Below are positions 25,117 through 28,417 of a DNA stretch of 64,000 nucleotides, in pieces. The translations under genes were made by a program, and so were the position numbers. The stretch lies in assembly GCA_023078555.1 (NCBI GenBank), contig CM041198.1, positions 6,328,924 to 6,392,923 on the forward strand, in the 5' to 3' direction. Under the pieces are notes generated by a model that did not search any database, was not told the origin of the DNA, and saw only the letters and a list, made by a program, of their open reading frames with translations. This DNA comes from Ulva prolifera. Taxonomy: Eukaryota > Chlorophyta > Ulvophyceae > Ulvales > Ulvaceae. Position 1 is the stretch's first letter; each line of letters starts with the position of its first letter.

Positions 25117-28100
25117 TCACAGCAGCCACTCCCAGCCACGGCCTTTGCAGTCTTCACCTCGGCATCGGAATTTGGGAGCAGGTCTGGGCCGCCTTGGGGC
25201 CTTGGGAGAGGTGCCAGGAGTGCGTGGTGGCAGCTCTACCGGAGGGAAATTGGTTTCCGGGAATGGCGGAAATGCGAATGGTGGCTTCCCTGGAGACTTG
25301 GGGTTGCCTGGAGCGGGAGCCATTGGCTCTGGAGGCGGCGCCGGCATCGGGTCTGGAGGAGGGGCCGGCATCGGATCAGGAGAAGGCGCTTGCATGGGCT
25401 CGGGAAGAGGGGCCGGCATCGGGTCCGGAGGAGGGGCCGGCATGGGCTCGGGAGGAGGGGCCGGCATCGGCTCCGGAGGCGGCGCCGGCATCGGTTCCGG
25501 AGGGGGTGCGGGCATCGGCGCCGGAGGGTCCGTGGGCGGGGGCAGGGGGGTGCCACGGACGCCGCAGATGCCGTCAATGCAGTCCCGCGCGAACTCACAC
25601 TGCGGCCCCCGCATCATGAGAATCGCCGGGGTACAGCACGGCTGCCCCTCCAGCCCACAGCCGAGCGAGCTGCATGTGTCGGTCTCGGTATCACACTCCC
25701 GGCCTCTCGCACACTCTCCGCCATCGCAGCACTGCAGGCCGTCGAACCCGCACCGCCCCGAGCAGACGCCTTCAGGGGTGCACAACGAGGCGCCGGCGAC
25801 GCAGACATCGCCCTCGCAGCAGATCTCGCCGCGGGGGCCACAGGAGACGCAGAGGTTGTCGATGCACCGCGCCCGGGCGTTGCACTCGTCAAAGCCGTCC
25901 GCTTCGGTGCAGCAGCGCTGGCCGGGCTGGCCACAGGGGTCCCCTGCACAGCGGCAGCACCGGCGTGCAAATGCATGCCCGTCATGCATTACTCATGATG
26001 CGACTGTGCAGATGCTGTATGCATCAGGACAGTTCTGGCTGTGAGTGACAGGTCATCGGCTCCGGTACTTCACTTATGCACCTCTGCCATGCATGCGCTG
26101 TGGCCGGCAGATAAGACTTGAGAAGCATGATTTGAGGTCAGGTCCGCTGACAAACACACGTACTGCAGGCATTTGCTGGTGCGACAGGCCCAGATTGAAT
26201 CTAGCAGTGCAGAAAGAGGCGATGCGCATGGTCACATGGCCACATCCATTGTCGGGTTGAGGACCCTGTACGCCACCTTGCAATTGGGCACCAAAGCCAC
26301 AGTACGATCGCAGAGATTCAGATGTGCTCTACTCAGACACAGCACACCGCTAAGGTTGAGGAAGTGGACGTGCGCAGAGGGGCGGAGGCGCACTGTCTTC
26401 TGGAAGACAGAGGTTGGACGTCGGGCCGCAGACGTAGTCTCCGGCGCAGTAGTCGTCCAGGCAGCATGGCTCGCTGTCACCGCCGCAGGGCTCGCAGATG
26501 CTGTCGATGCAGAGGAAGCGCGCCCCGCACGAGCGGCCGCGGCAGCACGGCTCCCGGTTAAAGCCACAGCCTGCACACAGCAGACAGTTCCTCAGCTTCA
26601 GCAAGTCCCGGATCACTCTTACACAGGCCTGGAGACACTGCTAGGGATCGCCGAGAAACTGCGGTTGCAAACCGACCATTGCAACCGGCCAGCGCGCCAG
26701 CGGCGGCTGAAAAGACTGCTAACCGACCATTGCAACCGGCCAGCACGCCAGCGGCGGCTGAAAAGACTGCTTAAAAAACGCACAGGGCTCTGCCCTAAAG
26801 AAGCTATGGCTGTACACGCATCTGAACAAAGCCCGCTGTCAGCCGTGGACAAGCAGCCAGGGCGTGCCACGCCGCCGTGGAGAAACTACTACCAAGTGAC
26901 TCCTGCATATGCATGTGGATCCCGGCCGGGGCGGCTCTGGAGACGCACCGTCCTCTGACCGAGGCGGAGGCGGTGGGGGCGGAGGGACATCCGCCCCCCC
27001 CACGCACACGCTATCACCGCCACACTCTCCGCCACCCCTGCACGGACCGGTCGGCTCCACCTCAGCGCAGCACGCGAGGCCGTCAAACCCGCAGCGGTCG
27101 CACGTCCCGTCAACGCACACCACGCCGAGGTTGCAGGAGCGGCCGGGCCGGTCCTCCTCCGCGCAGCACGCCTGCCCCTCCTCCCCACAGTTGGCCGGCA
27201 GGCATCGGTTCGTCTCGTCGTTGCACAGGAAGCCCGGCGTGCTGAAGGCGAAGCACTCGCCGCCGTCGCAGCACGGCTGCTCGGCGCCGCCGCACCCCGA
27301 GCACACGCCGTCGAAGCAGATGTCGGAGTAGTCGCAGCCGAAGTCGCAGCACGGCAGGCCCCGGCGGCCGCAGGTGAGTTCGCAGAAGCCGCCGGGGGTG
27401 CAGGTGGCGCGGGTGTTGCAGCGGTTGTCGGGGCAGCAGCGCTGCCCGGGGCGGCCGCACTCGGCGCAGAGGCCGCCCGAGGAGCAGGTGCTGTAGTCGC
27501 CGAGGCAGTCGAAGTCCTCCGCGTCCGCCTCTCCGCAGCAGCGCAGACCAGGGCCCCCGCACGGCAGGCCTGCAGCGTTTAATTTTATACCTGGTAGTAG
27601 TATACTGCGTTTCAGTGCCATGTATGGCACCTCCTCCGCCAGCACGCAGAGCATTCCACAGTTCCACACCACGAATGTGCTGTGACATTTCAAATGCAAA
27701 TTGTAGCGCTGGCAGCTGATACCTTGGCCTGAGGCAAACTCCTCAAGGAGTGCGGGCTGCGCACAGGCGCAGCGTGAGGGCATGCATGGCAGTGCTAGAG
27801 CACGTGCTAGACGCCTGTCCTTTGAAAAAGGAGACAGCGCAAGCAGGCGCAGGGAACATTGAGATGCTCTGCATGCGGACTCGAGCTCGAGCTTGTTCCG
27901 CATCATGGCTACAGCTACAGCGAGTCCATATGGGTACTGTTGGTCAGTGAGCTGTGCTTGGCAGGCCTTCTACAGCAAACATGAAGGCACAATACGCGGT
28001 CCCGTACTTCCTAGCTGCCACACTCACCGCCCCAGATCTGCCCCTGACACCACAAATCTGAGCGCTGCAGCTGAGACCTGCATGGGCTGGAGACACTCGA

Positions 28101-28417
28101 TTCTGCGACTTAACTCGCAGAATTCGCCCTGCACCAGAATCAGTACTACTATTCTATGCTATGCATGCATGCACCCGGAACCAGCCGCTACTTGAACTGA
28201 GCGCCATTGCAAGGTTGCCGTGCTTACACCACGCACCAGGAATCGGCTCCAGGGTCGCAGGAGTTGCGGGCTCTTGAGCACTAGCTGGGCCACTCGCGAT
28301 CAAGGCACTCCACAGAACGAGCAACAGGGCCGCAATCGGGCGCTGGAGTGCGCTGACGCTCACTCCTCCGTCTCGTAGCCGTCCGCCCGGTATGCGGACA
28401 TGCGAGTGCCCCCTCAT
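25117..28417 (-). CDS. Secreted protein with twelve CG-x4-CC modules and Pro-rich tail
   Basis: Four exons are proposed: 28417-28237, 27569-26949, 26570-26394 and 25943-25117. Joined they give 1806 nt, 601 residues. All three introns are phase 1, with donors GTGCGT, GTGCGT and GTGCGC and acceptors ending GCAG.

Residues 27-48 are a hydrophobic signal peptide (LLLVLWSALIASGPASA). Twelve modules follow, each starting CG-x4-CC (for example CGRRGLPCC) with three more Cys: six in exon 2, two in exon 3, four in exon 4. Exon 2 ends in a PPPPPPPP run. Residues from about 463 are Pro-rich with repeated PMPAPPPE.

The likely place is the wall or extracellular matrix. The module resembles small disulfide-knot folds, but no named family is claimed. 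Codons favour G/C at third positions. The start is the first Met before the signal peptide. Exon joins are inferred from signals and phase. Confidence 0.72.
25325..25530 (-). repeat. Coding minisatellite for the PMPAPPPE repeat
   Basis: Units of about 24 bp (plus strand GGAGGAGGGGCCGGCATC and variants) repeat in the last exon of the Cys-rich gene and keep its frame. Length variation here would change the tail length without a frameshift. Confidence 0.8.

Follow-up and report, generated by a model that had tools for sequence, protein, structure and literature searches.

Which kind of protein is encoded by the minus-strand gene at 28417-25117 of a 64,000-nucleotide stretch of the green alga Ulva prolifera, how are its repeated cysteine (Cys) modules built, and what would it do? 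The stretch, called the window here, covers positions 6,328,924 to 6,392,923 of the forward strand of contig CM041198.1 (assembly GCA_023078555.1), or C3:6328924-6392923 in the numbering of the genome searched (88.9 Mb, 44 contigs). A first-pass annotation, made from the letters of the window alone, had described this focal gene as coding for a secreted protein of twelve six-Cys units and a proline (Pro)-rich repeat tail, belonging to no family it recognised, with Cys spaced nearly as in a cystine knot across unit borders and a role in the extracellular matrix or wall. Chlorophyll a/b-binding genes match the genome at 38 places, as would be expected of a green alga; the best of them matches LHCII chlorophyll a/b chains in the PDB, with a longer LHCI chain (9vfj) ranking first by E-value. 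The secreted modular architecture and the nameless family stood up to analysis and the wall role stayed reasonable, while the border-crossing knot was not supported; a paralog cluster, a second family gene in the window and bacterial relatives had been missed. The preferred reading, given a probability of about 0.6, is that the focal gene belongs to a locally amplified family and encodes a secreted glycoprotein with a structural part in the extracellular matrix of the green alga.

Gene model and module array

The twelve-module, four-exon gene is real (Table 1). Its joined exons give 1806 nucleotides that form an open frame of 601 amino acids plus a stop, with clean splice sites, confirming the model first drawn; all three introns start with GTGCG, end with GCAG, lie in phase 1 and have stops whichever frame is read. 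An alternative in-frame donor for exon 1 at 28227, nine bases further, would add three residues. Exon 1 resembles a signal peptide, as had been claimed: in a simple hydropathy scan it is the most hydrophobic candidate running from an ATG to a phase-1 donor within 2 kb upstream, and a secreted modular architecture is supported at the level of sequence. The putative signal exon contains no Cys and hence no lipoprotein anchor, unlike some bacterial members, and no N-glycosylation sequon occurs in the focal protein. A run of 26 G on the plus strand (window 28496-28521) lies about 80 bases upstream of the start codon.

Each of the twelve modules has exactly six Cys, in the order C-x6-CC-x(3-11)-C-x(5-9)-C-x(4-6)-C, within a unit of about 27-30 residues. 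The opening CG-x5-CC, which replaces the CG-x4-CC spacing given before, occurs 12 times in the module region, which is 18% Cys; when that region was shuffled 2000 times with its composition kept, the motif averaged 0.38 occurrences and never exceeded 4. All 12 modules are in register. Linkers between modules are 2-7 residues long, except for the 19 residues, eight of them Pro, that follow module 6. The PMPAPPPE repeat tail was recovered as eight octads, and the tail is 44% Pro; of the 74 Cys of the protein, 72 lie in modules and two at the C-terminus.

Table 1. Features of the focal gene and of a second family gene, in window coordinates
Feature	Position	Strand	Remarks
Exon 1	28237..28417	-	Start codon, long n-region, hydrophobic core, signal-peptide-like; ASA-QEP after core
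Intron 1	27570..28236	-	Phase 1, 667 nucleotides, GTGCG...TGCAG
Exon 2	26949..27569	-	Modules 1-6 and 8-Pro linker; alignable to six-module exon of four paralogs
Intron 2	26571..26948	-	Phase 1, 378 nucleotides
Exon 3	26394..26570	-	Modules 7-8
Intron 3	25944..26393	-	Phase 1, 450 nucleotides
Exon 4	25117..25943	-	Modules 9-12, Pro-rich tail, stop
Module 1	27466..27561	-	
Module 2	27382..27459	-	Also modelled alone
Module 3	27301..27372	-	
Module 4	27202..27294	-	
Module 5	27100..27189	-	
Module 6	27004..27093	-	
Module 7	26494..26568	-	
Module 8	26407..26487	-	
Module 9	25849..25935	-	
Module 10	25762..25842	-	
Module 11	25672..25752	-	
Module 12	25564..25659	-	
Eight PMPAPPPE-like octads	25327..25518	-	Residues 469-532
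C-terminal end	25117..25326	-	Pro-rich, PPFAFPPF, then CRGEDC (two Cys), stop
Second family gene, module exon	49607..50208	+	Four CG-x5-CC motifs, phase-1 acceptor just 5' of the first; end is open-frame end
Second family gene, two-module exon	50388..50641	+	End is open-frame end
Second family gene, probable last exon	60897..61900	+	Three CG-x5-CC motifs, Pro-rich tail ending SDLFTFTTG

No name for the family emerged when the protein was searched against Pfam, NCBIfam and PDB sequences, in line with the first-pass annotation, which had not recognised it. The 601-residue protein matched no family in Pfam or NCBIfam at E up to 5, exon 2 matched no PDB sequence at E up to 1, and profile searches of the PDB returned only non-significant matches (best E 0.24 and 0.11). 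Within the Pfam search, at E 5 or better, the pherophorin domain PF12499 is absent from the focal protein, as are hevein/chitin-binding, Dickkopf and STIG1 domains and any known inhibitor or lectin domain. When 51 module pairs were scanned singly against Pfam only weak matches arose, the strongest being to PF23416 DUF7107 (5 of 51, best E 0.0011), a family that the focal protein itself does not match at E 5 or better; Dickkopf_N followed with 4 of 51 (best E 0.24) and Stig1 with one (E 0.22). TIGR04201 Myxo_Cys_RPT, likewise a Cys-rich repeat and named for myxobacterial proteins, matched one of the 51 pairs at E 0.069 and the focal protein not at all at E 5 or better. In the literature, judged by titles and abstract openings of the entries listed, nothing was found on the module in algae or on the bacterial repeat.

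Predicted fold and disulfide pattern

Structure prediction of one module, which had been proposed as a check, proved confident: module 2 modelled alone reached a predicted local distance difference test score (pLDDT) of 93.6, and a two-module model 91.3. Foldseek places the single module closest to the scorpion peptide Ts11 (PDB 2msf), at 1.0 Å over 28 columns with template modeling (TM) scores of 0.71/0.73, the highest TM of 18 rows, although the E-value of 2.0 is not significant. The neighbours of the one- and two-module models are nearly all knottins by title; membership of the knottins is not claimed, since these matches have E >1.

Ts11 has a knottin-like fold with four disulfides, published as 4-12, 11-21, 16-26 and 7-28. 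Counted from its Cys 4, six of its Cys stand at 1, 8, 9, 13, 18 and 23 (C-x6-CC-x3-C-x4-C-x4-C), at most one residue per loop from the commonest module spacing, and the bonds 4-12, 11-21 and 16-26 map to C1-C3, C2-C5 and C4-C6 of the module. Unlike the module array it is a single free venom peptide with the additional bond 7-28, and kinship is not claimed. A 1-3, 2-5, 4-6 pattern is presumably also that of the conotoxin Mo3964. This peptide (PDB 2mw7) is the best sequence match of a single-module profile, at a non-significant E of 0.11, and has the same CG-x5-CC opening; it too is a single peptide, unlike the array.

Each module is predicted to be a self-contained bead with bonds C1-C3, C2-C5 and C4-C6. 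If C2 and C5 are bonded, their joint loss is expected, and pattern searches found four-Cys modules without both, with 7 unique modules having lost the pair together; such variants were sought by patterns, a profile-based search being blind to them. Acceptor sites fall at module borders, in line with self-contained modules. No Cys is found in focal residues 1-63, before module 1, nor within 25 residues before the bacterial arrays L078 (12 modules) and L118 (17 modules), or after them. Two other classes of apparent Cys loss were set aside: the 36 strings lacking C6 were mostly products of the pattern's end rule, and five algal strings lacking C5 or C4 were, on reading, long-loop modules followed by further Cys.

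A paralog cluster under purifying selection

The focal gene stands at one edge of a cluster in which paralogs span 250 kb, and further copies are scattered through the rest of the genome. Queried with focal exon 2, the genome gave 27 matches; one is on C1 and the other 26, which include two to the focal gene, fall at C3:6.354-6.605 Mb. A paralog query gave 36 including itself, of which 11 lie on C3, 21 on C7, two on C2 and two on C1. Grouped by eye from both queries, the C3 matches amount to approximately thirteen gene places within 250 kb, and a pattern count across the family pieces examined gave 103 modules. All but one of the 21 C7 matches are units of the repeats at 1.03 and 6.30 Mb, two places that resemble each other.

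Four paralogs were compared (g6467/h6469, g6476/h6477, g6585/h6586 and g6601/h6603, each pair presumably one gene). Their nine-module exons share 58-73% identity with 54/54 or 54/55 Cys kept and a ratio of nonsynonymous to synonymous substitution rates (Ka/Ks) of 0.24-0.43; their six-module exons share 50-58% identity, keep 34-36 of 36 Cys and have Ka/Ks of 0.28-0.41. In all 20 pairs compared Ka/Ks is below 1, and for the two exon sets of the four paralogs the ratios demonstrate purifying selection.

A YAG acceptor lies at most 45 nucleotides 5' of the first module in 22 of 24 frames with at least two motifs, and all 22 are in phase 1. A signal-like exon with a phase-1 donor precedes the focal gene, g6469, g6478 and g6603; the hydropathy scan found none that was convincing for g6378, g6447, g6573, g6579 or g6587, and a doubtful one for g6436. 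The nine family tails examined are 26-59% Pro, which makes the earlier suggestion of a matrix or wall role a reasonable one by analogy, and seven of the nine carry an F-x-[FY] motif, g6467 and g6476 being the exceptions.

Some family members depart from the common form. L180 (C7:1026600-1030900) is an open frame of 1311 residues that consists for the most part of 64-residue repeats, nearly identical to one another, in each of which a six-Cys module is coupled to a four-Cys module without C2 and C5; the second place, at C7:6.30 Mb, has the same unit-by-unit match scores in most rows and looks like a copy. A copy at C7:5854032-5854520 has 47% identity to g6585 with an internal TGA and TAG, and is apparently decayed or crosses an intron.

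A matching module in Myxococcota

A prokaryote collection scanned with a degenerate DNA pattern of one module gave at least 115 stretches. A looser pattern, requiring a frame with two or more modules, was passed by 28 of the first 80 loci and by 15 of the other 35. Of the 28, L085, L113 and L129 were discarded as shadow or low-complexity frames and the remaining 25 went into a profile; none of the 15 did, and L153, L166 and L176 among them appear spurious. Among the matches listed, 37 loci were judged real, 33 of them recorded as Myxococcota taxa or Deltaproteobacteria (L103, L130, L142 and L165 are not), and the longest tandem array comprises 19 modules, loosely matched, within a single frame; the 25 loci retained from the first 80 supplied 171 modules. 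Of 187 Myxococcota genomes sampled, at least 10 contain the module by matches at E 1e-8 or better; two of these had themselves supplied seed sequences. As far as this shows, the module is patchy within the sample. Two bacterial array proteins that were scanned matched no Pfam family and gave a single weak NCBIfam match (E 0.13).

The Myxococcota CG-x5-CC proteins (L134, L118, L144, L088 and others) have the Cys order, overlapping spacing and tandem arrangement of the algal arrays, with the same preferences for Gly, Gln and Pro between the Cys. They differ in that their arrays are uninterrupted frames, unlike the exons of the alga, and in that none of the seven frames examined has a Pro-rich tail. 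The N-termini of L134 and L118 end in L-x-x-C, a start which is presumably lipoprotein-like. A seven-Cys bacterial variant with a second vicinal pair near C5 was seen in Myxococcota arrays (L071, L072, L090, L098, L103 and L116); 21 unique strings fit, by a pattern that also catches neighbouring modules.

A bacterial profile of 144 modules, from which the 27 fitting the search pattern were left out, scores 320.9 bits on the focal module region, compared to 379.0 bits for a profile of the algal paralogs. In 500 shuffles with the Cys and the CG Gly held fixed the mean was 153.9 (standard deviation 15.9, maximum 213.3), and in 500 with the third-position loop Gly also fixed it was 186.0 (standard deviation 15.2, maximum 234.9); none of either set reached 320.9. 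When the test was reversed, and an algal profile was scored on parts of three bacterial proteins against 200 shuffles of either kind, all three agreed. The focal gene thus combines the Cys frame of the Myxococcota-type module in 12 of 12 modules with a profile score above all shuffles, and as a matter of sequence statistics the comparison shows that algal and bacterial modules share a pattern beyond Cys spacing. Common descent is not established by this, since such a pattern can be dictated by a fold. Viral carriage of the module was considered and dropped: 22 viral contigs matched the DNA pattern, and none had a credible module array in the frames examined.

Proposed role and alternative explanations

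Under the preferred reading each module would fold alone into a tiny bead, and the twelve beads, set in two blocks with a polyproline hinge between them, would form a protease-resistant stiff rod or a set of binding or contact faces. The Pro-rich tail would be hydroxylated and O-glycosylated, lodging the protein in the wall, and the number of modules may be varied via duplication of exons of matching phase, which would change length and leave the frame intact. The architecture, clustering and purifying selection are demonstrated from the DNA; where the protein lies, whether it is glycosylated and what it does mechanically are proposed on the model of the hydroxyproline-rich wall proteins of Chlamydomonas and Volvox (PMC10762512). 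Two results call for caution. The focal gene shows 38-45% identity to the four paralogs and Ka/Ks of 0.41-0.82, higher than among the paralogs and hence weaker support for constraint, although these values are possibly inflated by alignment error and saturation. In addition, 42 of the 61 arrays of two or more modules are preceded by a Cys at a distance of at most 12 residues, partly where a further, irregular module comes first or the frame enters an intron, which weakens the self-contained register; with so many arrays of this kind the register argument rests on the clean cases, L078 and L118.

The chief rival for the role, which is unlikely, is a multi-headed binding or defence protein whose variable loops would bind microbes, proteases or channels while the Pro tail tethers it to the wall, growth of the cluster being the outcome of an arms race. 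Clustered amplification, loops that change while the Cys are nearly fixed, and a set of Foldseek neighbours whose titles mostly name inhibitor or channel-active knottins all fit this; however, Ka/Ks below 1 throughout (computed over whole exons), the many roles of knottin-like folds and the lack of a Pfam inhibitor or lectin domain count against it. A metal- or redox-buffering Cys store, in place of a structural protein, would make use of the high Cys content of the module region, but the signal-like exon and fixed six-Cys spacing suggest oxidised disulfides, and the paired loss of C2 and C5 is what disulfides lead one to expect; such a store is very improbable. Hardly credible is the reading that this repeat-rich region holds a decayed gene or has given rise to a false gene model: the window does contain two copia-type elements and a DDE transposase, a family copy elsewhere has two stops, and the Ka/Ks of the focal gene exceeds that among the paralogs, yet the 601-codon frame is open, its splice sites are clean and all 72 module Cys are in register.

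The structure and origin of the module raise separate alternatives. In the border-crossing knot C6 of one module would pair with C3 of the next, giving overlapping knots C6prev-C3, C1-C4 and C2-C5. The spacing C-x2-C-x6-CC-x4-C-x5-C resembles that of the inhibitor knot and of hevein, knottins make up most of the Foldseek matches to the two-module model, and the joint loss of C2 and C5 fits as well; but under the knot the first module's C3 and the last module's C6 would go unpaired, with no capping Cys in L078 or L118, the 19-residue Pro hinge separates modules 6 and 7, and a lone module models confidently. With the linkers of 2-19 residues, acceptors at borders and the Ts11 match also speaking against it, the knot is quite improbable and the self-contained bead is preferred. 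As to origin, the module hints at a shared building block for the cell exteriors of the alga and of predatory soil bacteria and their kin. A tentative joint reading, held with less than even confidence, is that a self-folding 1-3, 2-5, 4-6 bead shared by Myxococcota and the alga made one passage between domains, came to lie in exons with phase-1 acceptors, was fused to a Pro-rich wall anchor, spread into the 250-kb cluster and serves as a main protein component of the matrix. Convergence, with no common ancestor and no transfer, is possible to a like degree: the unit has about 27 residues, and so small and stable a frame of disulfides can evolve repeatedly, as a scorpion peptide of nearly the same spacing and possibly the same fold suggests. 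Against convergence, the bacterial profile's 320.9 bits lie far from the stricter shuffle mean of 186.0 (standard deviation 15.2) and near the 379.0 of the algal paralog profile.

Second family gene and mobile elements in the window

The exons of the second family gene, putatively one gene, are separated by a copia-type open reading frame (ORF; 53512-59157, minus strand) and a long CA/TG run (approximately 51.3-52.6 kb); a comparable gene at C3:6435992-6440371 is compact, unlike this one. Frames of copia-type long terminal repeat (LTR) retrotransposons, with gag, integrase and reverse transcriptase domains, occur at 16435-20499 on the plus strand and at the minus-strand position just given. 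A DDE_Tnp_4 transposase ORF (41129-42535, plus strand), presumably Harbinger-like, adjoins an ORF of 536 amino acids (42722-44332, minus strand) that has no Pfam match at E 0.001.

Comparison with known systems

The EsV-1-7/IMM Cys-rich proteins were set aside, as their motif differs from that of the module. No closer match was seen in the available parts of the papers on Ginsentides (PMC6212409) and on the Ulva compressa genome (PMC9266709). The secreted Cys-repeat proteins (SCREPs), as far as the consulted description goes (PMC6262176), are also secreted repeats of a disulfide-rich domain, found in bacteria and eukaryotes; they form an architecture class and not a family, a Pro-rich tail is absent from that description, and the main text has no word beginning "alga" or "plant". 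The focal protein has the SCREP architecture, a signal-like exon followed by 12 disulfide-rich modules, with secretion being predicted. The available part of PMC13388995 offers pacifastin as a precedent for a disulfide domain common to myxobacteria and eukaryotes.

Within the green algae, the comparison is with pherophorins and other hydroxyproline-rich glycoproteins of Chlamydomonas and Volvox, which the consulted part of PMC10762512 presents as secreted, wall-building and in part Pro-rich, as proposed for the focal protein. The focal protein lacks the pherophorin domain, and its head is instead the module array. Neither the class of secreted Cys-repeat proteins (PMC6262176) nor Pro-rich glycoproteins of the wall are new in themselves; what seems new here is the combination, together with the nameless module, its bacterial twin and the predicted bond pattern.

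Pherophorins have a head-and-rod layout, and the Cys spacing of pacifastin presumably differs from that of the module. The present case is a large, clustered, coding green algal family with no Pfam or NCBIfam name, and the predicted bond pattern is specific; the Myxococcota link makes shared ancestry versus convergence in tiny disulfide folds testable with one profile. If the matrix role holds, the family would represent a second route, besides the pherophorins, to a protein-rich algal wall.

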